DNA of 64,000 nt from an uncultured Clostridia bacterium (GTDB taxonomy: Bacteria > Bacillota > Clostridia > Christensenellales > UBA1242), in assembly GCA_944376905.1 (NCBI GenBank), contig CALWEA010000003.1:1-64000 (forward strand). The letters are read 5' to 3'. The notes under the pieces were generated by a model that was not told the DNA's origin, did not search any database, and saw nothing but the letters and a program-made list of their open reading frames with translations. This document shows positions 1,157 through 58,200 of the stretch, one piece after another. The position numbers were made by a program, and so were the translations under genes. The stretch's first letter is position 1. Each line of letters starts with the position of its first letter.

Positions 1157-3127
1157 ATGAACAAATTTGTTTTATCATCTAAATTTAAACCATCTGGAGA
1201 CCAGCCACAAGCAATAGAAAAATTAGTTGAAGGTATAGAAGATGGTTTAAAATCGCAAGTTTTATTGGGGGTTACAGGGAGCGGAAAAACTTTCACAATG
1301 GCAAATATAATAGAAAAAGTTAATAAACCAACACTTGTTATTGCACATAATAAAACTTTGGCGGCTCAATTATGTAATGAGTTTAGAGAATTTTTTCCTA
1401 ACAACCGAGTTGAATTCTTTGTTTCATACTATGATTACTATCAACCAGAAGCATACATTGTTAGTAGTGATACTTATATTGAAAAAGATATGTCAATTAA
1501 TGATGAAATAGATAAACTTAGAAATAGTGCAACTGCTTCTTTATTAGAAAGAGAAGATACCATAGTTGTTGCTTCCGTTTCTTGTATTTATGGTTTGGGA
1601 AACCCTGAGGAATACTGGAAATTACAAGTTTCTTTAAGAGAAGGGCAAAATATTTCTCGCAAAGAGGTTATCAACAAATTAGTTGAAATACAATATACGA
1701 GGAACGAACTTGATTTTCATCGTTCAACATTTCGAGCAAAGGGAGATATTTTGGATATTTTTCCTGCCAATTCTTCAGAAAAGGCAATTAGAGTTGAATT
1801 TTTTGGAGATGAAATAGATAGAATTAGTGAATTTGATCCATTAACTGGACATAAAATTCTTGAACTTAAACATGTTTCAATTTTTCCTGCAACTCATTAT
1901 GCTGTTGGTTCGGATAACTTAAATAATGCATTAGAACAAATAAAACAAGATGCAGATATTGAGGTTGCTGATTTTGTGAGTAGTGGAAAGTTGATTGAGG
2001 CACAACGTTTAAAAGAGCGTGTTTCTTATGATATTGAAATGATGCGTGAAGTTGGTTATTGTAATGGCATAGAAAATTATTCACGTTACTTTGATGGCAG
2101 AAATATTGGCGAACCTCCTTATACTTTATTAGATTATTTCCCTAAAGGTTTTTTAACTTTGATTGACGAAAGTCATATAACATTACCTCAAATTAGAGCA
2201 ATGTATAACGGAGATAAAGCGAGAAAAACAAATCTTGTTGACTATGGGTTTAGATTAAAATCGGCATTTGATAATCGTCCGCTTAATTTTGAAGAATTTA
2301 ATAAAAAAATAGGGCAAACAATTTATATTTCAGCAACGCCTGCTCCTTATGAACTGGGAATTAATGGACAGGTTGTTGAACAAATTTTGCGTCCAACAGG
2401 GTTGCTTGACCCTCTAATTGAAGTTGTTTCAACGGCGGGACAAATGGAACGATTGATGTTTGAAATTGAAGAAGTTATTAAAAGGAAAAATCGTGTTTTA
2501 ATAACAACTTTGACAAAAAAAATGGCTGAAAATTTAACAACATTTTTAATGGAACATAATTTTAAAGTTAAATATATGCACAGTGATATTGATACCATGG
2601 AAAGAATTGAAATTGTTTCTGGTTTGCGTAAAGGTGATTTTGATGTATTAGTTGGTATTAATCTTTTGAGAGAAGGGCTTGATTTGCCGGAAGTTGAATT
2701 AGTTTGTATTTTAGATGCAGATAAAGAAGGATTCTTGAGAAGTGAAGGAGCATTAATACAAACGATTGGTAGAGCAGCACGCAATGAAAATGGAAGGGTT
2801 ATTATGTTTGCTGATACTATAACGGGTTCTATGCAAAGAGCGATAGATGAAACGGAAAGAAGACGAAAAATTCAAAATGAATATAATCTTAAAAATGGAA
2901 TTATTCCTAAAACTATAAAAAAAGATATTGTCAATACATTGGAAATTTCTAAAAAATTTGGGTCTGATGTTGACAACAATGAATTGCCAAAAGAAATTGA
3001 AAGATTGAAAGGTTTAATGAAAATTGCAAGTAATCAACTTGATTTTGAAACTGCTATTGAATTGCGAGAAAAAATAAAAATATTAAAAGAAAAATTGGAT
3101 AAAAATATTTATAAAAAGAAAAAATAA
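1157..3127 (+). CDS. uvrB: UvrABC system protein B (excinuclease subunit)
   Basis: UvrB is the helicase-like damage-verification subunit of nucleotide excision repair. It is loaded by UvrA and recruits UvrC. The 656-residue length is normal. Visible landmarks are Walker [15 protein letters not shown] near residue 38, the beta-hairpin region [11 protein letters not shown] near 93, the DEAD-like box 'LIDESH' near 337, helicase motif VI 'QTIGRAARN' near 536, and a C-terminal UVR domain (IERLKGLMK...[11 protein letters not shown]) at about 612-648 that contacts UvrC. The start is set by AAGGATTTTAATATG. uvrA follows after 288 bases in the same direction; uvrC is not in the window. Confidence 0.98.
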
Positions 3128-3415: not shown

Positions 3416-6214
3416 ATGGAAAAAAATATAAAAATTATTGGGGCAAAAGAAAATAATTTAAAAAATATCAGTTTGGAAATTCCTAGAAACAAATTGGTTG
3501 TTTTTTCGGGAGTTAGTGGAAGTGGAAAATCAACTTTGGCATTCGATACTATTTTTGCAGAAGGACAAAGAAGATATGTTGAAAGTTTATCATCTTATGC
3601 AAGAATGTTTTTGGGACAAACTCAAAAACCCGATGTTGAAAGTATAGAAGGTTTGTCACCAAGTATTTCTATTGACCAAAAAAGTACAAATCATAACCCT
3701 AGATCAACAGTTGGAACTGTAACTGAAATTTATGATTATTTAAGATTACTTTATTCAAGAATTGGAATTCCTTTTTGTCCTAATTGTAATAAACCTATTA
3801 AAAGGCAAAGTTTAGACCAGATAGTTGATAGGATTAAAGAAATTGGTGAAGGTGAAAAAATTATAATTTTGGCACCAGTTATTAGGGCTCAGAAGGGAAC
3901 ACATATTAAACTGTTTGATAGTTTGCGTAAAAGTGGTTATGTTAGAGTTGTTGTTGATGATAATAACTATACACTAGACGAAGAAATTATTTTAGACAAA
4001 AATATAAAACATACAATTAATGTTGTTATAGATAGACTTGTTTTAAAATCAGACAATGATTCAAGATTAACTGAAAGTGTTGAAATTGCTTTAAAACTGG
4101 CTGATGGATTAGTTATTTGTGAAAATAATGGAAAACAAGAATTGTTTTCAACCAATTTTTCTTGTCCAGAGTGTGGATTTTCTTTAGAAGAAATAACACC
4201 TCGTTTATTTTCATTTAATAATCCTTTTGGTGCTTGTGATAAGTGTAGCGGTTTGGGCTATACAACTGATATCGATGAGGGAAAACTTTTAGTTAATAGA
4301 AAATTATCAGTTAATGAAGGTGCTTTTAATTTTTCAGGTTGGAGTAATGACCCTGATTCAATTGCGAGTTTATTTTTTAAGGCATTGAGTCAAAAATATA
4401 ATATTGATTTAGATGCTCCAATTGAAAGTTTGCCAAAAAAACATTTAGATATTTTATTGTATGGCAATAATGGTGAAATTTTAGAAATTAAAGGGAAAAA
4501 GACGACATTTGAAGGTATAAGTAATAATATGGCAAGAAGATATAAGGAAACTTCAAGCGAATGGGTTCGCTTTGAAATTGGAAAATATTTTAGTCAGCAT
4601 ACTTGCCCTAAATGTCATGGACAAAGATTAAATCAAAATGCGTTATGTGTTAAAATAGATGGAAAAAATATCGCACAAACGTGTGAAATTAGCGTTGATA
4701 AATTGTTGGATTATTATGAAAATTTGAAATTATCAAAAAATGATTTAGATGTTGCAAATACTATTATTAAAGAAATTGTTGCAAGATTAAAATTTCTCAA
4801 TGATGTTGGTTTGAATTATTTAACACTATCTAGAAGTGCGGAAACATTAAGTGGTGGGGAGGCACAACGTATTAGATTAGCAACACAAATTGGAAGTGGT
4901 TTAGTTGGTGTTTTATATATTTTAGATGAACCAAGTATTGGACTTCATCAAAGAGATAATGACAGGTTGCTTTCAACGCTCTTTAAACTCAGAGACCTTG
5001 GAAACACGCTTATTGTTGTTGAACATGATGAAGATACTATTAGAAGTGCTGATTATTTGGTTGATGTTGGACCTTTGGCGGGTGTCCATGGCGGAGAAAT
5101 AGTTGTTGCTGGTTCGGTCGAAGATGTTGAAAATTGTAGCAGGTCAATAACTGGACAATTTTTGTCTGGAAAAATGAAAATTGAAGTTCCAAAATCGAGA
5201 AGAACGAGTAAAGATTATTTAAAAATAATAGGTGCAAAAGAAAATAATTTAAAAAATATTAATGTTGATATTCCTTTGGGAGTTTTTACTGTTATAACAG
5301 GAGTTAGTGGGAGTGGTAAAAGTTCGCTTATTAATAGAATTTTGTATCCATATTTGTCAAATGCATTAAATAGAAGTAAACATGAAATAGGTAGATGTAA
5401 AGAAATAAAGAATATTGACAAATTAGATAAGGTTATTGCAATTGATCAATCGCCAATAGGAAGAACACCTAGAAGTAATCCGGCAACTTATACTGGTGTT
5501 TTTACGCCAATTCGAGAACTTTTTGCTTCAACACCAGAAGCACGTGAGAGAGGCTATAAGTCTGGGCGTTTTAGTTTTAATATAAAAGGCGGACGTTGTG
5601 AAACTTGTGAGGGGGCAGGTGTTAAAGAAATTGAGATGTATTTTTTACCAGATATAGAAGTTCCTTGTGAAGTTTGTAAGGGGAAACGTTATAACAGAGA
5701 AACGCTTGAAGTTAAGTATAAGGGAAAAACAATTTATGATGTTCTTGATATGACTGTTGAAGAGGCTCTCAAATTTTTTGAAAACATACCTCAAATCATG
5801 GGTAAAATTAAAGCTCTTTATGATGTTGGTTTGGGCTACATTAAGTTGGGTCAATCTGCAACTTTGTTGAGTGGAGGAGAAGCGCAAAGAGTTAAATTGG
5901 CAAGTGAACTCGCTAAAAAAAGTACAGGTAAAACTATTTATATTCTTGATGAACCAACAACTGGATTACATTGGTTTGATGTTAAAAAACTAATATCTAT
6001 ATTACAACGCCTTGTTGATGCGGGAAATACTGTTGTTGTTATTGAGCATAATTTAGATGTTATAAAATGTGCTGATTATTGTATTGACTTGGGACCAGAA
6101 GGTGGTGATAATGGTGGGGAAATTGTTGCAACTGGAACACCTGAAGAAATTGCAAATAATAAAAATTCTCACACAGGAGTTTTTTTAAAAAAAATATTAT
6201 CAAATAATATATAA
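3416..6214 (+). CDS. uvrA: UvrABC system protein A (damage-recognition ATPase)
   Basis: UvrA is the ABC-type ATPase that dimerises, scans DNA for bulky lesions and hands off to UvrB. The 932-residue product has both nucleotide-binding modules. Walker A GVSGSGKS occurs near residues 32 and 643, and ABC signatures LSGGEAQR occur near 480 and 818. Zinc-binding Cys pairs are seen as CPNC near 121, CPEC and CDKC near 247-275, CPKC near 395, and the damage-sensing finger CETC...CEVCKG near 727-756. The length is typical for the family. Transcription probably ends at the hairpin at 6252-6286, which is also the left end of a repeat element. Confidence 0.98.
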
Positions 6215-6679: not shown

Positions 6680-8509
6680 ATGACAAAATCAAAAAAGAAA
6701 ATAATATTTTTAACAACAACTTTAATTTTAACAATTTGCTTAATGGGTTTTATGGGAGTTTATGCTTTAACAATATTAAAGAATTCACAAATAAATGTTG
6801 GTATATCATATCAACCAGAATATTTAGTTAAAGTTGAAATGGGAATAGACGGAGCAAACGGCGGAACAGATAATCAAACAATTGAAGAGAATGAATATGT
6901 TGAAATATTTAATAGTTTAAACCCTGTTTCAAATGGAATGTATATTCAAAGTATGTCTAATGACACAATACATATAAACTCACAAACATTAACGCCAATA
7001 GGGGTTAATGGTGATGTTTATTTTAGAATAACATCTCTTGAAAATGAAACCAGCGGTAATAAAGATTTGCAATGCATAATAGATTGTGGAAGTTCAACAG
7101 CGGATAGCAAAAAAATTGTTAGTAATGAAACTAAAATATTAACAATTTCAACGGGATTAGACTCAACAAGTGGACAACCAGCAAGCAGTTCTTTGGGTAT
7201 GATTAAAATAAATTTAAATTTTCAAGAATATGAGCCACTTTTAACTGAATTAATTTTTGAAGTTCCTGCTTTGAACGTATTCGAAGGAAGTAGTTATAAC
7301 GATGTTATTAGTAAAATAAATGGATTAAACATTATTGGAAAATACGATGATGATAGTCAAAAAAATCTTATTCTTAATACGGATTATGAATTAAATTTTA
7401 ATCGTACTGATGGTGGAGGAAACGGAAATTTCACTCAACCGGGAATTGCCGGAACTATAACGGCAATTGCAATTTCTGATAATGAAATACAAAAAACTAT
7501 CAATTTAAATGTTCAACCTTATACTGTTTATGAATACGCAAGCGAAACAGGTCCAGTTTATGATAATAGCAATACATCAAACCGCTATGTTCATTATATA
7601 GAAATGGGAGAATATCCACAACGTTATGTAGGAACAACCTCTACAATAAGTGCAACACCACAAGGGACATATTATGTTGATAACAATGACGGTAGTAAAA
7701 AATATGCATTAAAAGGAAATAATTATTATTTAGTTGAGCCAGTACGTTGGATAGTTATAGGAGTAACAGACGGAGTTTATGACGGAGGAGAACATGTTTT
7801 ATTCACGACAGGTTTTCAAGCAGAAAATGAGTCATCAAGTTCGGGATTATGGTTGTATAACGAAAAAACAAACACATTCAAATATAGAAAAACAACAAGT
7901 GGAGAATGGAAAAATGCGAGTGAAGTTTTAGTTTTAAGTGAATATAGTTTACTACATTCAACATATAAAAATACTGGTTATGACTCATCACCATATTATA
8001 ACCATTTTTCCGCATCAGATATAAATGAAGTTTTAAATGATGAGGATAATGCGAATAGTTTATATAACACAATGTTTACAGATAATCAAAGAACAAAAAT
8101 AATACCAAAAACAATGGAAATAACAAGTTATTATAATGGAACTGAGTTCGCAGGACTCAACTCAACAAATTATAATACAACATCATATAACATGTTTTTA
8201 TTGGGTTCAAATATAAATTATAATGGAAGTTTTTATTTAGACTATGCGACAGATTCATATAGTTTAGGAACATATTTTAAACCATCAACTAATACAACGG
8301 AATCTAATAGACTTGCAAAAGAAACGGCATACTCATCAGGAACGCAAGATAGTCCTGGCAGTTATAGTGCATCTTATTGGTGTTTGCGTTCAGGTAATGT
8401 CTGCTACGATTCCGAGGCGTTTCTCGTCGGTTCGACTGGAGATGTGACTGAATACCGTGTCTTTGACTCCTTCGCCTTGCGTCCCGCTTTTGTCCTTGAT
8501 ATAACATAA
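6680..8509 (+). CDS. Exported protein with a DGR-like hypervariable C-terminal domain
   Basis: The 609-residue protein starts with a basic stretch and one transmembrane segment (about 7-30), so it is anchored or secreted. Residues about 38-190 ('YQPEYLVKVE' to 'LNFQEYEP') form a domain shared with the protein at 38806-40383 and partly with the one at 29662. Residues about 200-285 resemble a bacterial Ig-like domain. The C-terminal half ends in 'SYWCLRSGNVC...ALRPAFVLDIT', the DUF6273-like, FGE/C-type-lectin-like layout often used as a DGR target. Codons 567-607 differ sharply in composition from the rest (see the variable-region entry). The ribosome-binding site is AAAAGGAG. No reverse transcriptase is in the window. 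A ligand-binding surface role is inference. Confidence 0.85.
   Translation: MTKSKKKIIFLTTTLILTICLMGFMGVYALTILKNSQINVGISYQPEYLVKVEMGIDGANGGTDNQTIEENEYVEIFNSLNPVSNGMYIQSMSNDTIHINSQTLTPIGVNGDVYFRITSLENETSGNKDLQCIIDCGSSTADSKKIVSNETKILTISTGLDSTSGQPASSSLGMIKINLNFQEYEPLLTELIFEVPALNVFEGSSYNDVISKINGLNIIGKYDDDSQKNLILNTDYELNFNRTDGGGNGNFTQPGIAGTITAIAISDNEIQKTINLNVQPYTVYEYASETGPVYDNSNTSNRYVHYIEMGEYPQRYVGTTSTISATPQGTYYVDNNDGSKKYALKGNNYYLVEPVRWIVIGVTDGVYDGGEHVLFTTGFQAENESSSSGLWLYNEKTNTFKYRKTTSGEWKNASEVLVLSEYSLLHSTYKNTGYDSSPYYNHFSASDINEVLNDEDNANSLYNTMFTDNQRTKIIPKTMEITSYYNGTEFAGLNSTNYNTTSYNMFLLGSNINYNGSFYLDYATDSYSLGTYFKPSTNTTESNRLAKETAYSSGTQDSPGSYSASYWCLRSGNVCYDSEAFLVGSTGDVTEYRVFDSFALRPAFVLDIT
8378..8506 (+). 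other. Candidate DGR variable repeat (VR)
   Basis: Codons 567-609 of the exported protein break with local base usage: bases 8401-8500 contain 53 G or C by my count, about twice the window average. From codon 574 many codons end in C (GTC, TGC, TAC, TCC, CTC, GTC, TAC, GTC, GAC, TCC, TTC, GCC, CCC, GTC), although neighbouring genes strongly prefer NNT. This is what adenine-specific mutagenesis of AAC codons in a template repeat would leave. The framework S-G-N...S..A.....STG.V....V..S.ALRPAF fits the template-type pattern of Asn-rich DGR tails in gut Firmicutes. The paralogue at 38806 has the same fold end (LRDGQ...NIRPACVLD) with ordinary AT-rich codons. Confidence 0.65.
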
Positions 8510-38805: not shown

Positions 38806-40383
38806 TCATGAAACATCTAAAACGCATGCTGGACGAATGTTTCCTAGTGCATTTCCCATATGCCAATAAAGATCTAATGTTTTAAAAGACCCATCTTGTT
38901 GTATTGAAGGATAGTAAGAAGTTTTATATCCATCATATTGACCGTCTCGTAAAAGGTATTCTGTTGGAGTTTCTTTATCTAAACAAGATTTGGCTATTTT
39001 GCTTGTATTATTGTCGAAATAATTATCTATAGAAAATGAAGTTATAACTATTTCTTCCCCCCATTCTGTAGTATATCCCATTAAGAAAAAGTTTGCGAAG
39101 TATGGATATAGTTCGATGTATTTATCTCCCGGATATTTTTGAAACCATATATTATTCTCAAGATATGTGATTTTTGCAAATTTTAAGTCATTAGAATTTT
39201 TTGAAAAAACGGGCGGAAATTGAGTGGAAAAAAAATTCTTTCCAACGGTTTGAGAGTCATTATAATTTATAGGGGGAAATAAAACATATTCGCTTAAAAG
39301 GAGGAGTGATGTTGCTGGCTGGGGAGTTAATGTGTTATCAAAAATATAAAAAATACCATTTTCATAATAATATTTACCTGCAACAGGATTGGTTTTATCT
39401 GTTTTATTTTCAGTTGTAAATAAAATTTGGTTTTCTTCGCTATAACTTTTATATTCTTCACCTGTTGTTTCGTTTGTTGCTGAAACTTCATCTGATTGGG
39501 TGTTGGCGCCCAAAATTATCCATTTTATAGGCTCAAATTTTTGCCAAGTATTTATGTATTTGCCGAGTTCGTTATTATCTCCAGGTTGCATATTAGGCGT
39601 TATTGAATGATTGTATCTAGTTTTGTCTATTTTATTATAATATATGGTAGATATTAAATCGAAAGTTTGATCGGGATTGCCGGTTAGGCTTAAATTATAG
39701 TCAAGTTGGGTAAAGTTAGTTGATAGTTCTTGTTGTGAGGGTTCTTCTATTTCTTGTTGAGGATATTCGCCGTAGATTGCGTAATATTCGTAATAGTTAG
39801 TTTGTAATTGCCCTTGTGAATTTGTAAATGTTCCTTTTGTTGGTTTATCTTCATTATTTAAATATTGGTGGATAGTGTAGGGAACTTCTTGAAAGTTTAA
39901 TGATATTTTTAATTCGCCAAGATTTGATGTTGTTTCGCTTGTTGCTCCTGTTTGTAAATCAAATTCTTTTGTTGTTGAATTAGGTTGTAGGCTTGTTGAA
40001 ATTGCATATTCACCACATTGTGCTTCACATTTTATTATTTTTTCTCCAAAATTGGTTAAACGGAAATGTAAATTTCCTTCTTCGTTAGGAGTTATTGCGT
40101 TAGAATTTAAAATTATCGTGTTTGATGAAATGCTGTTAATATACATTTCATTTGCTTCTTGTGGAGCATTGCTATTATATATTGTTATATATTCGTTAGG
40201 TTGCTGGTTTTGGATTTCTACCTTTATCAAATATTCTGGGTCATATTTTAATGATAAATTAATTTGAGAATTGTTTTGTTTTGTTATTGCAACAACTCCT
40301 AATGTTGTTGTTAATAAAAATAATATTATTAAAAATGCTGAAGTTATTATCTTTATTATTTTTTGTAATTTTACTGTTTTCAT
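38806..40383 (-). CDS. Exported protein, paralogue of the DGR-target-like protein
   Basis: The 525-residue protein has an N-terminal transmembrane segment (about 12-34). Its first domain, 'LKYDPEYLIKVEI' to 'LGELKISLNFQEVP', matches the 609-residue protein at 6680 along about 140 residues. The last part ('YLLRDGQ...DGSF...LYWHMGN...NIRPACVLDVS') has the same DUF6273-like framework as that protein's C-terminus, but here codon use is ordinary and AT-rich, so it does not look hypervariable. The region about 185-460 aligns in part as well ('YEYYAIYGEYPQQ' with 'YIEMGEYPQRY'; 'FEPIKWIILGA' with 'VEPVRWIVIGV'). It is divergent from an XRE regulator. Confidence 0.85.
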   Translation of the reverse strand: MKTVKLQKIIKIITSAFLIILFLLTTTLGVVAITKQNNSQINLSLKYDPEYLIKVEIQNQQPNEYITIYNSNAPQEANEMYINSISSNTIILNSNAITPNEEGNLHFRLTNFGEKIIKCEAQCGEYAISTSLQPNSTTKEFDLQTGATSETTSNLGELKISLNFQEVPYTIHQYLNNEDKPTKGTFTNSQGQLQTNYYEYYAIYGEYPQQEIEEPSQQELSTNFTQLDYNLSLTGNPDQTFDLISTIYYNKIDKTRYNHSITPNMQPGDNNELGKYINTWQKFEPIKWIILGANTQSDEVSATNETTGEEYKSYSEENQILFTTENKTDKTNPVAGKYYYENGIFYIFDNTLTPQPATSLLLLSEYVLFPPINYNDSQTVGKNFFSTQFPPVFSKNSNDLKFAKITYLENNIWFQKYPGDKYIELYPYFANFFLMGYTTEWGEEIVITSFSIDNYFDNNTSKIAKSCLDKETPTEYLLRDGQYDGYKTSYYPSIQQDGSFKTLDLYWHMGNALGNIRPACVLDVS

Positions 40384-46290: not shown

Positions 46291-49200
46291 ATGAGATTTT
46301 TTAAGATTTTTTTGATTTGTTTTTTCTCTTTAATAGGTGTTATTGGTGCTGTGCTAGGTATAATGTATTTGGCAGGTAGTTTTAATAAAGTTGTTGTTGA
46401 ACCAACTGAAATCCACTTTGAACAAAAAGATTTTTATGTTGATTCTGATTTTACTTTAACTATTAATTCCTCAACAGAAGGTGTTACTGAAAAAAATGTA
46501 ACTCTTTCTTTGCGTGACCAAGATGGTGATGCTGTTGATGGATTTATAACTGACGGAGTTATTAAAATTCCTCAAAATGTTGAGATTGGCAAACCTTTTA
46601 ATGTTACTTTAATAACCGCACCAAATGAAGAACTTGACAATAATATTAAATGGATAGTTGGGGGAGTTTCTGAAATATTTGCTTCAAGTGAGAGTGATAA
46701 AGCAATTGACATTTCTTGTAGTGTCCATGTTGATGTTCCTATTCATTCTATTTCAGTTGTAACTTATACAAACGATAATCAACAAAATCCACAAAATTCT
46801 TTTGCTTTAGGTGAAAGTTTTTATGCGGAGGCCATTTTTAAACCATCTACAAGTAAGTTTAAATATAGTTCACAAACAATAAAAAAAGTTTTTTTTGATA
46901 TCTCATTTAATAATCGTGGTTACATCGCTGAAAATCAAGATATAATTGATGAAATGAATGATTTGGGCTACTATAACATTTCTGGTTACACCGTTTTAAA
47001 AACAACAAATGAAAGTGTTCCTAAAATCTCTATCAAGGCTAGAACTTTCTTGACGGCTAACATTGAAGATTATTATTTGTCTCTTGGTCTTACCGAAGAT
47101 GATTTGATTAAATATTTACAAAATACTAGTTATGGTTGTAGTAGTGATGCTGATTTGATTTTTACCAACAGAACTGTTGCTGGGTTTGATATTTCTAATA
47201 TTAATACTAAATTTACTTTACCCGTTAATCAAATTTCACAAATTTTTGCTAACACTTTAACAGAGGGTTTGCCAAATTTAAAAATTAATATAACCGCAAG
47301 TGATAAAACTTCGCTTCAAGGAAAAATAAGTGATGTTGGCTTGCGGTTGTTGGTTAATGATGCTGGCGTTTATAGAGAAGCAACAAAAAATGAAATTTTC
47401 TTTGATGAAAACACAAAATTTGAATTTGGTGTTAATCAATCTGGGGAAGGGCTGTACTATTTTGATGGTAATAATTTTGTTGAAATTTCATCTATCATTA
47501 GCGAGCGTTATCGTAAATCTGGCGAAATTTATGTTGAAAGTTTAACTGGTGCATACTACAAAACTAATGATTCATACATTTTAATATCTGAAACTTATGG
47601 CGAAACTTATGATAAATATTATTTCCCTAATATTGTTGCTTCCAATGTTGATAATAGTTTTTGGAATGTTGTTAGTGTTGCAGAAAACCTTCCTTTCTTC
47701 TTTGAAGTTAGACTTTTTGAAAAAGATGATGTTATCCAAACTCCTAATACAATTCTTTATTCTTATAACACTTTAACTTCTTTTGTTACAGGTAATATTG
47801 TTAATTCATCTATTTCTTGGATTGATGAAACTGCTGTTAATTTAACTTATATAGATAGTAATATTGACGACCAAAAAATCTATCCTGAATATAATTTGGC
47901 AGAAAACTTACAATTTTCTAATGTTAATTCAACCTATTCTTTTGTTAAATTTTATGCCTACTCTACTAATGAAATTGTTGATGTTAATTCTATTTTACAA
48001 AACATTCAACCTGCTTCTAAAATTGATTTAAGTCGATTTAATATAACTGCTCCTCTTTTTGAAATTAATGGAAATATTCTTCGTGCTTTGGGGGCGGGTA
48101 GTGTTAATGTTATTGCTGTTGTTTTAAAAACAGACTATTTAGGGCATTTAATTGAAAACAATGGATTTTATGAAGTTTATGCTATTTCAACCCCTAAAGG
48201 AAATTCTGTTGCAAGTTATCAACCTTTAGAATTTAACATAGATAAAACTATTCAAGATATATCGGCTTCTATAAACGTTAAAACTGCGGGAAATGTTATG
48301 AATATTTCTCAAAACACATTAACCCCTGTTAATAAATTGTCTTTTATGCAAAATCAAGATATTTTGCCTATATTTAATTTATCCATAACATTGACCGCAG
48401 ATGCTACAACTGATATTTTAAAAGAAGTTAATTTATTTGTTGATGCTTGGAATAATGGTAAAATTAGTTTACAAGCATTGACTTTGTCTGGGTTGGAGTC
48501 TGATTTACTTCTATTTAATCAAGATGCTTCCATAACGGTTGAAAGTGGTAATTTTGTTGGTAATACATGGACTTTTGACATTGATGTTTTTTCTCTTGAA
48601 ACAAATATTGATACAGATTTAAAAATTTTATTATCTTATCAACAAACTGAAACTCAAAAACTTGAAATTTATGTTCAAGATGTTGTTTTGCCAGTTGAAA
48701 TTGCCGATAAATATCAAGAAACTAATATTGGTTATGCAATAATTGAAATTTACGACGCTAAAGCCTACACCGTTGAGTTTGGTGTTGAAACAACAGAAGA
48801 CAATCCTGTTGTTAAGTCTTTCATGCTTCAAGCAGGAACTCAAATTTCTCCTGATTCTTTTGTTGCAAGTTCTGTTGAAACTGTTTATATGCAAAATGGT
48901 TTAGATGTTAGTGATTTGGTTCTTTACGCTAATGGTGAATATATTCTTATTTTTCATGATAAGTTTGGAAATGTTATAGATGTTCCTAGTTCTGATTTTA
49001 GCATAACTTCTCAAACAACTTCTAGTTTAAAAAATAATCAAATTGTTAGTATGATAGAATATTCTTCTATGTTATCAGAAGTTGATAAACCAACTGCTAT
49101 TTTATATCTTCAAGAAAGTAGTATTGGATTATTAACACAGGTAAAATTTAATCAGGGCAATATTAATAATGGTTATTTTGAAAATCTTTTTGTTGACATA

Positions 49201-52200
49201 ACAGATGATTATTTAGAAAATAACAATAAAATTGTTCAAATAACAAGATATGGTGCAAAAAATGCTAATATTGATTTGCTTGGTGAAAATGGATTGTTGG
49301 ATATTTTATATCAAGCAGTTAATTTAGATAATGATAACACTCAAAATAACATAACTTATCAATTGTATGATATAATTTCATTTAACTTTGAAACAACTAA
49401 TTGGCAATCTACATATCAAGATTGTTTGAGGCTATCTGATGATGGGCGAACTATTGAAATTTTAAAAACTATTGGTACTGCTATTAAACTCAATATCAAG
49501 GCTAATACTGGGCTTGGTTATGTTGTTCAAATTGAATTAAACATTCTTCCTAATATTGACACCACTTATTCGGTTATAACAGAGCAAGAAGGTGCTAGTG
49601 ATTATGTTCAAAACAACACTTATCATGGCATTTATTCAGACAATAATGTTCAAGTTCAAATTTCTTTTACAATGAAATTGAGAGAGTCTTTTTCTGTTGG
49701 TTATTTTTGTAATACTGCACAAAGTAATTTCTTTTTTGCTGACGGTGATAGTAGATTCTTCGTTAACAATGAGTTAGAATCTCAGGCGATTTTGACTGTT
49801 GCTTTTCTTGCTGATGAACTAGGAATGCAAACTATAACAATAACTAGTGGTGAGGGAGCGGGTAGTGCTTATGATTTCAAAAGAGAAATTTATTTGTATG
49901 TAAATCCTAATCTTCAACTCAATAATGCAATAGATAAAACCTTAAATAAAACTCTTACAATTTCCGATTTAGGACTTCCTTACAATATTATAACTACAAC
50001 TGATTATAAAAGAATAGTTGGAAATAAAGAAATAACTTCTTCATTTATTCAAGTTTCTATTGCTGAAACCTTGGATAATGATATTTCAACTCAACAAGTT
50101 TATCTTATAAATGCAGATGGTTCTAAAACTTTAACTTCTAATATCTTTTCAACTAACGGTTTTACTATTTCTGCTAATGAAAGATTGTTGGGAAAATATT
50201 TTGTTATAGTTGATGTTACTTATGGTGGAAGTGTTATAGGACAGGTTTTCTTAACAGTTTCTCCTAATATATCTATTAATACAGAGAGTGAAGATTATAA
50301 AACTATGTTTACTAATTTTGATGGAAAACTACATTTAACTCTTGTTTCTAATAAAACCTATGATATTGATTTGCTTAAAAATCTTTTCTTAAATGTTGAT
50401 TTTGCTTCCTTTAATCCTTCTAATTTACAAAACGTTTATACAACAAGCAATATTGCAGGTTCAACAATAACTGTTAGCGGATTAAATTCTTTCACCACAG
50501 GAAATTATTTACAATTGTCTAATAGTGTTGGAATTATAACTTTCCCTGTATTGTTTGTTCCTGTTGAAATTGGCAGTGTTCAATATGATGTTGTTAATGC
50601 TGTTAATCCAGAGGCAACAATTATTACTAATAATGATTTTGGTTATCTTCAAAACCATAACAACTATTTAATTGAAAATGATATATATGATATATATGAT
50701 AGTGGAAAAACTTCTAGTTTAATCTCCCAAAATTACACTCTTTCTTATACTGATAATATTTACACCTTCAAAAATCTCCTTCCACAAAATGTTTTCTTAC
50801 TTGCTTTTGTTGATGGGCAATATTATTACTATCAAGTTAATGGTATTAACGTTGCAAACACAACTTTTAAATTCGCTCTTCAAGAAGAAGATGTCGCAGT
50901 TGGTGAAGGAAGTGTTAGTGTTGTTGGGCGTGATGGTGATGGCTGGGTTGTTATTGATGAACAAATTATTGATGCAAATTATAAAGTTGCACAAAATGAT
51001 TTTATTGGTGTTTTTAGTTCAGTGGATATAATTTCTAGCATTACCGAATTGCAGGAAAATCGTGGTTCTGGATTGGCGTTGGAATTTTTAAACAATAGTT
51101 CACATTACAATTTTGTTGTTGTTGATGAAATTGGAGATAATTTTGATTTTGATAGTCTTAATAATTTAAATGTTTCTCAATATGCTACCTACAATGCTAA
51201 TCTTGGTCTTTTAACTGCAAATTCTTCAACTAGCAATCAAATTGTTTGGCTTTTGATTAAAAAGGCAGATAGTATTGTTTCTGCATATAGAATTTTTATA
51301 ATTGCTAATTCCGCTTTAAATATTTATTATCCTTATTACAATGAGCCTATTAATTCAAATTCTTCATTAACAGGTGATGAAGGGGAGTATGTATACTTTA
51401 CAAATAATCAAGATATAGTTATAAATTTTAATGACAACATTCCTTCTAATATGCCGTCTAGTTCACTTGGTCAAAATGTCAAGAGAATTATGCTCCAATA
51501 TGGAAATGAGTTAATTGGATTTACTAATGCTGATAATTATTCTTTGGCTATGCAAATTCAAAGCATTAATATTAATGGTGTTACAACACAAGACCCTAAT
51601 GCTTTTAATGCCTATTGTTCCTTTGCTCCGGATACTAATACTTTAACAATTAAAAATACTCGTGATATTATTGTTATTTATATGTATGCAGAAGCAATTT
51701 TGAAAAATTCTCAAAATGTTAATCAATTCGCAACGGGAAATGGTGTTGTGTATAAAATTTTCGTTAACTACAATGCTATAAACTATGAACTTGTTTTGGA
51801 AAATGATTTAGGACAGTTGACTGACCAGCGTTTATCTTCTCAAAAACAAACAATTAATTATGGTGATGTTTACGATTTTTCCAAGGTTGTCCTTGTTAAT
51901 AACACTGGTAGTACATTAAACAGGGTTGAAGGTTTAAAATATTATATTTATGATGTTAATGGTAGAAATCTTAATGAATATTTTGAATTAAATCCTATTT
52001 CTAAAACCTTGTCCATTTTACCAGATGTTGAAATTGTTAGTGACCTCGAAATTAACATGGTTTATTATACTATGTTTGGTGAACTTTGCGAAGTTCCTTT
52101 AGTCTTCAAGTCTAATTTGAATTTGCATTTTAATGATAATCAATCAACTGTTTTGTTTGATGAAGAGCAAAATGTTTATATTGCATTTACAGATATTGCT

Positions 52201-55200
52201 TTTGATTTGTCTAACATTTTTTCTCTCAATAACGGTTTAACTCCTATGAATGTTCCTTCTCAATATTGGTATTATTCTATTAACGGCGGTGAGTCTTATT
52301 TGAATGCTGATAATTTATTGTTTACTCAAGACCAGGCTCGTGAGTATAATGTTTTAGTTAAAGTTGCTCTCTCTGAATTTGCACCTGAAACTTACTTAGA
52401 TGATTATATTTTTGCTGTTGATTTTAATATCAAAAATAGTATCATATCCAACTTTGATGCTCCTAAATATATGACTGTTGGTGTTGATGGTATTTTCGAA
52501 TATCCAACTGATGATAATGGACAATTATCAATTTCTAATATTCTTTTTGAAGAAAGCGATGTTGAAAGTAATGATTATCTATTTAGTATTAAATCTCTTG
52601 ATATTTTAGATGATTATCAAATTAAACTTAATGTTTTAAGGGGTAGTGAATATGTTTCAATCGCTGAGTCTGAGGTTGACTTGCAAAATAATGGAGTTGC
52701 GTTAACACTTAATTCACCTGCTGAATCAGTTGAAATTTTAATTGAAATTAGATTGACAAAAAATGATTTTTCAATTACTTCTAGATTTAGTTTTATGCTT
52801 TCTCCTGATGCTTATATAACTCCTCAATATCCAACTGCAAATGAGAATCATAGTATTGACTACGAGGCTATCTATCTTAATGGGGCGTATATAAATAAAC
52901 ATTCTGATAATTCTCAAATTGGTTCTGGGGGAAGTGAGCAAATTAAATTAACTGGTTTAGGATTCTTTGATACCGCTCGCCTTAAATTGACAAATGCTCA
53001 TAATACTTCTATCAATTTTACCCCTGCAATCATTGCTAGAACAAATGTAACGGTTGCAAGTCAAACAGATAATATTGTTGTTAGAGTTTCTAATAATGGT
53101 CAAAGTTATTTAAATGAAGATATTGATTTTGATGCGGGTGCAACTGTTGATACTATCTTTATGATTCAATGGGTTGGAGGAAATGAAATATCAACTAATA
53201 TAACTGCTGGTTTATCTTTAAACATTTATATTGACGGAATTCATCGTGCAACTTATAACATAACATTCTATTCTCAAATTAGTAATATTTTTGATATTTC
53301 AATAACTCCTCATAATGATGTAAAATCCTATGAAAATATTGATGATGAATTTGAAATATTTTATGTTGAAAATGGTGCAACTGGCAATATTTTTGCCAAC
53401 TCTGACGCTTTAATTCAGTTTAAACTTCGTGAAAATTACACGTTGAATCTTGGTAGTAAAACTGATGTTTGGAATTTTTACATTAATTCTGTTAGTGAGA
53501 ATAATAAAGTTGGCAGTGTTAATATTCGTTCTTCTGATTCAATAATTTCTCTTGCTTTAAGTGGTCGAGAAGCAATATCTTTGGATAATTTATTAGTTAC
53601 AATTAATGATGATGCAAATGCTTACGTTTTCAAAACTACCGTTTCTAACAGTATTTACTTGCAGTTTGTTGATGCTGGAACTAATGCACAGTTGTCTTAT
53701 AGGGCCAACACGTCGTTCATGGGCGAAACTTTGAGTTACGAAAAATTCTCTCAATATATTTTATTTGATACTCAAAATGCTTCTAAGTTTGTTATAAACA
53801 AAAATTCACAAGAAGCAATTAATGCTCCTGCATATGTTTCAGTTAATGTTAAAGGTGTTGAGTTCGCTAAATATGCGTATACTTTGCTTTATGATTTTTA
53901 CGCTGACCCTAATTTTAATTCTGATAATTATGAAATTGTTATGAATGCTGGCGACGAAATTTCCTCTGGCTTACAAGAATTTGAAATAACGCGTCTTAAT
54001 GGTAATGATTTCTCTCAAAATTATTTTGCTGATAATGATGTTACTATTGAGGCAAGAGTTATTATGATAACAGACTCTCAATATCCAACAACTAAATCAA
54101 TTGACAACATTAATTATATTAACAATCAATACATAGAGTATTATAATCCTAATTATGTTAATTTGGGTAGCGAATTCTATAACTATGTTGATTTCCTTTC
54201 TATTGGTTATAAACAAATTGAAAATATTCAAAGAACATATGATTTTACTATTCGTGCTGATGGGGCTGAAAATAACGGTAATTATGTTTACATTTTAATT
54301 AGTTTCTCTGCTGATGGTGTTGAAGGAAGCATGGCATATACAGTTGTTAAAGTTTTAATTAAGCCTGTTTGGAATGTTCAACTTTACAATGATATATCTT
54401 TTACAAGTGTTAATAGTGCGGATAACCCTCTTGAAATTCGTTATGATTCAACTAATTCTAATTTAATAACTAGAATATTCCTTGCGAGCAAAGATTCAAG
54501 TGCTAATTTTATAAATATTTATAATGGTAGTGATAATTCAACTAATTATGCAACACAAGGTAATTTTGCGTTAACCATAAAAGATGAAATTGCAAATTAT
54601 GTTGAACTAGATAAATCTTACAATCAAGGAAGTTCTTATTTTAAAGATTATATTATTCTTCAAAACACTTCTAATACTGCAAAATATGGTGATAAGTATG
54701 GCTATATAGAAATAAAAGATAAGTATGGTTATGTTTGCTATTTCTATCTTCATTTAATTGCTCAGCAAGAAGATGCTTTAAGTTATGCTAGTGCTATAAT
54801 TGGTGCTTCAAATAGCGATGTTTATGAAGGCTCAACTATTGGTATTGTTGATAATTCTTACACAGCGAACGGAACTGAAAAGGCTGATTACTTATTCAAA
54901 ATCAACAATCTTGACAATCTTTTAGATTTAGGGCTTAATTATAAGGTTACTTACTCAATTGCTGATGTTAATGTTGAAAGTTATAACACTAATCCTGGTC
55001 AGGATAATTACAACACTGGTAAAATTAGCGTTCAACCTGCATCTTTCTATGCAACAAGTACATTGAAAAAACAACCAGTTGTTTTGAAAATAACGCTTGA
55101 TGTTAGCGGAACTTTGAATGGCAATACCTATTTTGAAACAATAATAATTGATGCGGGAATGAATTTAGTTCAACGTTATACTGTTAGCAGTGGACAAACT

Positions 55201-58200
55201 TCTTATGTTCGTGAAGGTCAATCTTTTAATGTTAGTGATTATATATATGTTAGAGATGAAACCGTCGATGGAAATGTTGGAAAAATAGACCTATCCAACA
55301 CTGCATTTACTTTGGTTGTTCCTTCTGTTTTAAATGGTGCTTCTATTAGTGTTGAGGCAACAAGTGGAACTGGTAGTAGTAGTGTTTCTGTTGCAACTGC
55401 TGTTATAAATGTTGGAAAAACCGCAAGTGGTGATGTTAAACAAGCAACTTATAACAATTATTATTATCCTATCAATGAATTTACTGGTTTCAAAAATTTG
55501 GCTTTCTCCAACTACACTTTTACAATAAAATCTATAATTTTGCCAAATAATAGTGGATTTGTTCTTTGTCCTTTAACTTCTTACACCATTAATGGCGGTG
55601 AGCAATCCTCTTCAAGTAGTTATATTTTCTATAACTCTTTCTCTAATCAAACTGTTTCTGTTGTTTACTATGCAAATGGGGTTTATTACTACAAAACTTA
55701 TGGTCAAAGTAGTAGGGCAATTGAAATCAACACTCAAACAATTGTAAATGGCTGGAATCGTGATACTGAACATTCTTTCCCTGCACAATCATCTTCTGGA
55801 TTTGTTGGTATTTATAATGAAGATAGAACTAGTTTAATATCTTCTATAAATTCTGCAAATGTCTATAATAATTCTTCAATTAAGTTAATACAAGATAAAC
55901 TTTTAAGTGTTGTTACTTTAAATGTTGATAATTCTTCAACTATTAATGTTTCTCTTAACAATCAAACTTATAAGGTTGACATTCCTTTTAATCTTAATAT
56001 TGATGGAACACAATCAACATCAGTTTATGAAGCAATTTTAAAAATAGCAAATGGAAATATTTCAGACCCTCGTCTTAATAATTTGTCTTTATATGAAAAA
56101 GATAAAAATGTTGTTACTGCTGATGATATGCAAAAACTTAAAGGAATAACAATTTATAACGACACCTTAACTCTTAGTATTGCTGGTGGATATAGCGGAC
56201 GAGATGTTGATGTTCGTGTTCATTTTGATGATGAAAATGGTCAAGCATCAATTAAATCTAAAACTTATAGAATAACAAATAACAATCCTCATTATTATTA
56301 CATTTCTTTATATAGTATTTTAGGTGAAAAATATGGTTTGCAAGTTGATGTTTCTTATAAGATTGAAGTTATCTACACTTTAACAAATATCGAAGCGGGA
56401 ACTGAATATGATTATCAAAATGTTATTAGTCCTGTTTTAAACGGAACGACAAGTAGTGTTGAAGCAACTTATGATGCGGTTAATAATAATTGCACTTATG
56501 TTCATACGATTGATGATTTCTCTATTTCTCAAATGCCAATTGAAAATAATGTTTATTCCGACAAAATTGATATTCTTGCTAGTAGCGAATTTTCAAACAA
56601 AGTTAAATCTAATATTCAAAAATTCTATTTAGTTAAATACACCAAAGATAATGTTGTTTATTATGTTGATGTTAATTATAATGTAACTCCTAAATACTAT
56701 CAAATTGATGCTAGTGGAGTTTTACAAGATGGTAATAGTTATAATATAATCTATTTTAATCAATGTACTCCTGTTGGTGAAAATCAATATCAAATACCTT
56801 TTGAAAACTGGGCTGGAAATTATATTCTCGATGATTATTATGGTAATGATATAACCTTGTTAACCGAAGCGGAAAATGATTTGTATTTTGAAATTCAAAC
56901 AACTGACGAAAATCAAACAACAACTGCAACAGGTGCTGCTTTCTTGAATCCTGACAATAGTTTACAAACAACTTCAAGTTTCGACCCAGAACAACATTAT
57001 ATTAAAGTTTCTGTTTACACTTATGTTCACGGACAAGTTGACCAAAAAGTTTACATTGGTGACATATTTATAAAAATGGATTTGACATCTGTTTCTGTTC
57101 CAGTTCCTGGAATGTATAATATAAAAATAAACTCGCCAAATCTTGGCGGGCTTTGTTATACAATAAACACGCCTTATGAATTTACATCTCGTGTTGCTAA
57201 AATTGATGATATCTTAAAAGATAATCCTAATATGGAAGAACTTGTTAAAGAAAATGAAGAAACTCAAGAATTGCAACTCGGTTTTTACACTGGCAGTTAC
57301 TATACCTACGAAGATGCTAACGATTGTAATTTTTCTGTTGTAACGGTTTTTTCAGGGATTTATAATGCTTCATTTCAAAATGGATTTTTGAATATTAAAA
57401 TCAACTTAAATGAAACACAAGGCTCAATAGGGCAAAGAATAACCTTGCAAGCATTGGCTTTGCCAACAAGCAGTATTAATACATCTAAAACTTCAACAGA
57501 TTTTTATTTGACCGTTGGTTATAATAATGGCGTTTATTATCTAAATTATAGTAATTCTATAAATGGTGTTGACAACACTATTGCACAAATATTTAAGGGT
57601 GATGACGGTTTTTATAATGTTCAAATAGAATTGAATGATATATTTTCTGAAATTTTTGTTGGGACTGATTATAATTATAAAATAACTATTAAAAGTATTG
57701 AAAGCGTTGATGTTTCCTCTTCTTTATCTGTTGTTTATGCTGAAAATACCGAAAGCGCTCTTATAGACCAAACCATGTTTTTCCAAATTTCTTATATAAG
57801 TGAAAATAGTAATTTGCAAAGTAAGGTTATAGGTATTAAAAATACCGTTGAAAATCAAAAACTTGCTGGACCTTTGGGATATGCTATTGATTTACGAAAT
57901 CTTCTTGGGGGCATAAATCTACAAAATTGTACGGTTGCATTTTTAGGAAGTTATAGTTTAAATTGTGATGATGGTGGGCAGTATCAACTTTTATTAGGTT
58001 ATAATGTTTCAACTGATGTTCGTGTTTATAGTATTGCTGTTATAGATAATTATGATATTGTAAATCCTTTTTTCGTTGAAGATTATGCGCTTTCTATGAT
58101 TAATTTTTCAATAGGATTTGACACTTCGGTTGAATTCTATAACTATCCAACTCAAAGTTACACAGTTGGCTCTGGTAGTGACATACAAGAAATATTAATG

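Follow-up and report, generated by a model that had tools for sequence, protein, structure and literature searches.

The variable locus and its composition

The window, the whole stretch of 64,000 nucleotides analysed here, carries at 6680-8509 a gene for a 609-aa surface-type protein, which we call the host gene and which was recognised from its open reading frame, its translation and a C-terminal DUF6273 domain (PF19789). Genes for UvrB (1157-3127) and UvrA (3416-6214) lie upstream and a SpoVB-like gene lies downstream; these neighbours give the locus a chromosomal look, in agreement with the proposal that the host gene is a chromosomal one beside uvrA. The features referred to below are as follows.

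6680..8509, + strand: host (target) gene, surface-type protein with an N-terminal hydrophobic segment and a C-terminal DUF6273 domain
6680..6775, + strand: Lys-rich start followed by a hydrophobic stretch (MTKSKKKIIFLTTTLILTICLMGFMGVYALTI), read by eye from the translation
7922..8500, + strand: DUF6273 domain, residues 415-607 (hmmscan against Pfam, PF19789, E = 9.4e-11)
8372..8503, + strand: outer limits of the very probable variable repeat (VR) of a diversity-generating retroelement (DGR), common to six other genes (genome search, alignment)
8396..8473, + strand: hypervariable core corresponding to about 16 codons of an inferred AAY template, with positions 1 and 2 scrambled and the third C or T kept (column table, statistics)
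8474..8500, + strand: last segment of the VR, almost invariant, consisting of GCCTTGCGTCCCGCTTTTGTCCTT and a mutable AAT codon (column table)
38806..40383, - strand: paralogue that resembles the host gene at the N-terminus and at the fold end and has no VR (sequence comparison, composition)

The N-terminal stretch is likely to be a signal peptide or membrane anchor, in which case the protein would be exported. Its C-terminus reads WCLRSGNVCYDSEAFLVGSTGDVTEYRVFDSFALRPAFVLDIT, and the Pfam match places the VR at the 3′ end of a DUF6273-like domain, as had been anticipated. Twenty-odd matches to the 609-aa protein have either its N-terminal ~190 aa or its DUF6273 part in common. A sequence search returned no homologue of solved structure, and AlphaFold models built from one sequence or from a six-row alignment were unusable (mean pLDDT 30.5 and 39.5). 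Elsewhere in the window, an open reading frame at 46291-59364 encodes 4357 aa.

The composition of the gene changes abruptly at its end. GC content reaches 53.0% in 8401-8500, the value originally reported, whereas the gene body has 29.8% and the window 27.1%; 53% over 100 bp is attained at just two places in the 64 kb. The whole VR has 48.5% GC. Adenine falls from 41% in the gene body to 13% in 8396-8500. A change of codon usage had also been claimed, and this stands for the gene end, where third bases are T or C in 33 of the 44 codons of 8372-8503; the body has A or T in 474/564 codons and therefore combines NNA and NNT rather than keeping strictly to NNT. The paralogue at 38806 gave no Pfam match and, as described in the original prediction, lacks the shift (33.6% GC over its last 131 bp). 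Among DGRs verified in this bacterial family, VRs exceed both templates and flanks in GC (in G002, VR 0.49, template repeat (TR) 0.38 and flank 0.39), which is what loss of A predicts.

Seven variable repeats in one genome

The genome to which the window belongs (G000) is assembled as 1,371,802 bases in 28 contigs and is 96% complete. A search of it with the terminal 181 bp of the region (cut-off E < 1e-20) found seven places: the window itself and six more occurrences of the 3′ end (E 4e-38 to 6e-21), two on C1 (L002 and L004) and one each on C2, C4, C9 and C12, so that the seven copies span six contigs. Each of the seven closes a related DUF6273-type open reading frame and is open to the stop codon. 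In the aligned ends, constant G, C and T alternate with scrambled columns. Identity ends at the 8474-8500 segment in L001 and L005, and by analogy with the BPP-1 model this segment sits where an initiation-of-homing (IMH-like) segment would be expected; no convincing hairpin of the IMH type was found, the DNA downstream of the VR folding weakly. VR-bearing orthologues were absent from 197 genomes of the family at E ≤ 1e-20, beyond the genome itself. Domain relatives in GTDB contigs comprised five loci in Clostridia MAGs, none with a GC-rich end of this kind, and none was confirmed in IMG/VR.

Adenine-restricted variation

Although the gene is A-rich, only 1/50 invariant columns of the VR is an A across the seven copies, compared with 207/466 upstream (Fisher 7.6e-11), and a scan across the alignment of the whole domain places the lowest invariant-A windows at 8381-8497. 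Adenine is present in 33 of the 34 VR columns that hold three or more bases. At the 42 variable columns containing A, the bases number A 111, T 65, G 64 and C 54, which is near-random replacement. The copies differ pairwise by a mean of 0.63 at these mutable sites, compared with about 0.08 at the remaining VR sites and about 0.16 upstream.

The column table shows that the AAY codons of the VR are mutated at positions 1 and 2 while the third base is spared. Among differing pairs of hypervariable VR codons, 291/341 have an identical third base, against 231/381 in upstream codons of comparable variability; the associated p of 6e-14 is descriptive, since codon pairs are not independent. Adenine restriction was scored against a template deduced from the seven VRs themselves, and 15/57 variable columns, mostly with single departures, contain no A. 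This is a normal level for a DGR, given that 18/56 variable columns in the seven-target set of Treponema denticola are not template adenines (PMC4891356). The pairwise distances among the VRs have no structure beyond that of within-column shuffles, 36% of which match their variance, and VR differences retain a weak residual correlation with gene ancestry (Mantel r 0.47, p 0.014).

The restored template matches DGRs in relatives

Restoring A at the mutable columns yields an AAY-rich template; its real counterpart would be expected as a repeat of ~120 bp that matches TTGCGTTCGGGTAAYRTCAACWACAATAACAATGCGATGTACGTCAATTCG...GCCTTGCGTCCCGCTTTTGTCCTT. Compared with 309 genomes of the family, it matched, besides its own VRs, stretches in other genera at E 2e-9 to 1e-5; weaker matches were short and largely uninformative. 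It led to two cis DGRs in G119 and to a further template in G184, a genome of the same family:

L115 (G119): cis DGR with TR 1215-1332, VR 680-797 and reverse transcriptase (RT) 1695-2789; 17/17 TR-VR mismatches at A
L116 (G119): cis DGR with TR 1681-1795 and VR 41-155; 21/21 TR-VR mismatches at A
L117 (G184): template beside an RT

A multiple alignment of templates upheld homology for G119 and G184, as well as for G169, described below; its G185 row came from the wrong stretch and is left out of account. The target protein of L115 ends WWLRSPNTTAYLAYLVNSTGDVISSNVRSDLGVRPAF (WWLRSP...VNSTGDV...GVRPAF), and this end is clearly of the same kind as that of the window gene. Cis DGRs also occur in the same genus as the window genome, with 16/16 mismatches at A in G002 and 17/19 in G006. 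Unlike the window genome, L115 and L116 hold TR, VR and RT on one contig, and in L117 the TR lies beside the RT.

The variable region proposed from the window alone is thereby borne out by seven scattered copies, by variation that is restricted to adenines and spares third bases, and by a restored template that matches real ones.

No reverse transcriptase or template in the assembly

The window was said to lack an RT frame, and indeed a YxDD-like motif is absent from every open reading frame of 100 codons or more. The same holds for the assembly: no RT was found in G000 with PF00078, which detected RTs in 15/60 genomes of relatives, or with the RT profiles A3 and A6, the latter (12 rows) returning nothing at E ≤ 10 while finding RTs in 7/11 other genomes at E 1e-118 or better. 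The accessory DGR protein Avd, which is not universal, likewise has no match in this genome (PF05635). DNA searches for a template return the seven VRs alone, and the template of a relative used as query against the genome gave nothing. Phage and plasmid collections contained no template, and a constant 21-mer of the VR was absent from IMG/VR and GTDB contigs.

The near-identical AAC-rich repeat next to an RT, which was to be sought in the whole genome, was thus not found in this 28-contig, 96% complete assembly. The suggestion that the cassette must act at a distance is accordingly supported only in part: with RT and template missing from the assembly, the cassette may be unassembled, extrachromosomal or lost. 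The ends of contigs C12 and C14 seem to lie within one VR-bearing gene, so assembly breaks do occur in the VR-gene family; a whole RT-template cassette would normally be expected to assemble. The absence of RT and TR goes halfway towards the outcome that the original prediction named as its refutation, no TR or RT in the complete genome; the genome, however, is an assembly in 28 contigs, and the seven VRs are positive evidence.

Dispersed systems in genus g65

Two genomes of g65, a genus other than that of the window genome, carry stand-alone templates, and in each the DGR-type RT lies on another contig:

G169: template L118:614-740 (- strand); RT L129:7300-8472
G185: templates L119:8080-8206 (- strand) and L133; RT L128:2317-3516

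The nearest template of G169, located about 0.6 kb into C90, lies outside long open reading frames with no RT nearby. Confident alignments were obtained for sixteen VRs, one of them at the opposite end of C90 and the others spread over fifteen further contigs, and 270/305 mismatches fall at template A. C82 carries the sole DGR-type RT. Because 6.4 kb of that contig separate the RT from its nearer end, the distance to the template would be no less than about 7 kb were the two contigs adjoining. In G185 two template-like stretches (C55, C70) were found, with the RT on C98. Like the window genome, the g65 systems (L118, L119, L128-L156) have surface-type VR genes on many contigs, and their template is homologous to the restored one; unlike G000, both g65 genomes contain a template standing alone and a DGR-type RT that is not linked to it. 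In this family, then, RT, template and targets need not be linked, which does not by itself give the location of the cassette in the window genome.

Origin of the variable repeats

We are highly confident that 8372-8503 is the variable repeat of a DGR, a statement about its origin and not about present activity. An error-prone RT would copy an AAY-rich template RNA, inserting random bases opposite adenines, and the resulting cDNA would replace the 3′ end of target genes; one template would in this way diversify, in trans, a family of seven paralogous surface-type proteins with DUF6273, encoded at unlinked loci. Judged by analogy to TvpA and to the published DUF6273 targets, the scrambled residues probably make up the ligand-contacting side of a surface-located C-type-lectin-like domain.

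Explanations that dispense with a retroelement have little to recommend them. Diversifying selection of the ordinary kind, acting on a surface loop that duplication then spread, would suit a variable multigene family of surface-type proteins and the trace of ancestry in the VRs (Mantel p 0.014); selection on amino acids, however, cannot fix C or T at the third base of each column or purge invariant adenines, nor would an A-restored sequence then match real templates of other genomes at E = 2e-9. Plain positive selection is rejected on the adenine and third-base tests, and we regard this account as very improbable. We think equally little of cassette gene conversion, in which silent blocks are shuffled among paralogues as in pilin or vls systems: the twenty-odd paralogous matches with common segments and the ~150 bp downstream common to four copies might suggest it, but block sharing among the VR variants is not above chance (36% of within-column shuffles reach the distance variance), the seven matches are all gene ends with no silent cassettes among them, and third-base conservation is left unexplained. 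Gene conversion is rejected on the shuffle, adenine and third-base tests together. The least credible proposal is horizontal acquisition of a GC-rich domain end that is otherwise static. A GC of 51-53% within a 27% GC region is what would be expected of it, yet the family's verified DGR VRs are also GC-richer than their templates and flanks, and acquisition by itself yields no seven differently scrambled versions.

The fate of the cassette is a separate matter, on which our view is a judgement and not a computation. We lean towards its being still in the organism but outside the assembled contigs, unassembled or extrachromosomal, and a trans-acting cassette is possible. There is also a considerable, though lesser, chance that it was lost recently, a former DGR having made the seven VRs, which would now be frozen; this would alter the present activity of the system and not its origin. 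Loss accords with the absence of RT and TR from a 96% complete genome, with the frameshift that the VR-bearing L004 and L005 genes have in common, with the 15 variable columns without A and with T. denticola isolates that have VRs but no RT or TR and were interpreted as carrying leftovers (PMC4891356). Against it, non-A divergence in the VRs is about half that of the remaining gene (about 0.08 vs 0.16), all seven VRs are open to the stop codon, and the share of non-A columns is no greater than in the cassette-bearing T. denticola set. A bolder and rather unlikely proposal is that DGRs of this family are fully dispersed, with RT, stand-alone template and many VRs each at a locus of its own, and that the window genome is an extreme case in which RT and template reside on an extrachromosomal element and seven surface genes are diversified in trans.

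Comparison with known systems

The closest likeness is to the TvpA-type DGR of Treponema denticola, which has seven scattered chromosomal surface-protein targets with one common VR and in which 38/56 variable columns are template adenines (PMC4891356), compared with 42/57 containing A in the window set. The targets there are C-lectin proteins of the FGE-sulfatase type, whereas those described here are DUF6273 proteins, and one RT-TR core is known in strain ATCC35405 (PMC4891356), none being seen in the window assembly. Remote VRs, and VRs in strains without RT and TR, are thus already known (PMC4891356). DUF6273 is itself a published DGR target (PMC11792537, PMC10743442). DGRs of Faecalibacterium prophages have their VR at the C-terminus of this domain (PMC11792537), as in the window, and the DUF6273-like domain of tentaclins models as a C-type lectin fold (PMC10743442). 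The phage systems differ in that their targets are structural or receptor-binding proteins with the cassette in cis (PMC11792537, PMC10743442), while the window targets are bacterial surface-type proteins, here beside uvrAB. Thiohalocapsa PB-PSB1 is comparable in that its remote targets were explained by action in trans and in that it has incomplete loci (PMC10907252); the targets there are sensors of conflict systems, and metagenomes demonstrate diversification in the population (PMC10907252).

The chief interest lies in an array of seven VRs without an RT, together with the dispersed systems of relatives. DGR surveys mostly begin at the RT and look nearby, so that arrays such as this one are missed; one survey states that it would not detect remote targets (PMC8144416). 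In the present work comparison of paralogues was enough to recognise the VRs and to predict a template, and the prediction then led to real DGRs in relatives. An extrachromosomal cassette would mean that a mobile element diversifies the surface proteins of its host; a lost one would make the genome a record of the traces that remain after a DGR is gone. Relatives with a lone template provide a natural system in which to ask how template RNA, RT and target meet in trans.

Other features of the surface-protein family

Several further observations concern the genes of this family. The host genes of L004 and L005 (L049, L052) carry the same 1-bp deletion in their N-terminal half, which splits the open reading frame and leaves the VR part open. 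About 150 bp of common sequence follow the stop codon of the L002, L004, L006 and L007 genes, most with a tandem AT-rich unit of ~28 bp (CACTTATACATTATATGTTTAAAAAA). A large serine recombinase gene (L049:6417-7964; best NCBIfam matches CcrB and CcrA, below cut-offs) is separated by ~0.7 kb from the 3′ terminus of a VR gene and could possibly belong to a mobile element or an inversion system. Finally, eight paralogues in the same genome (L081-L088) have the N-terminal ~190 aa, lack DUF6273 and end in GLUG-like repeats (TITNCYNTGSVSG); together with the DUF6273 genes they form a mosaic surface-protein family.
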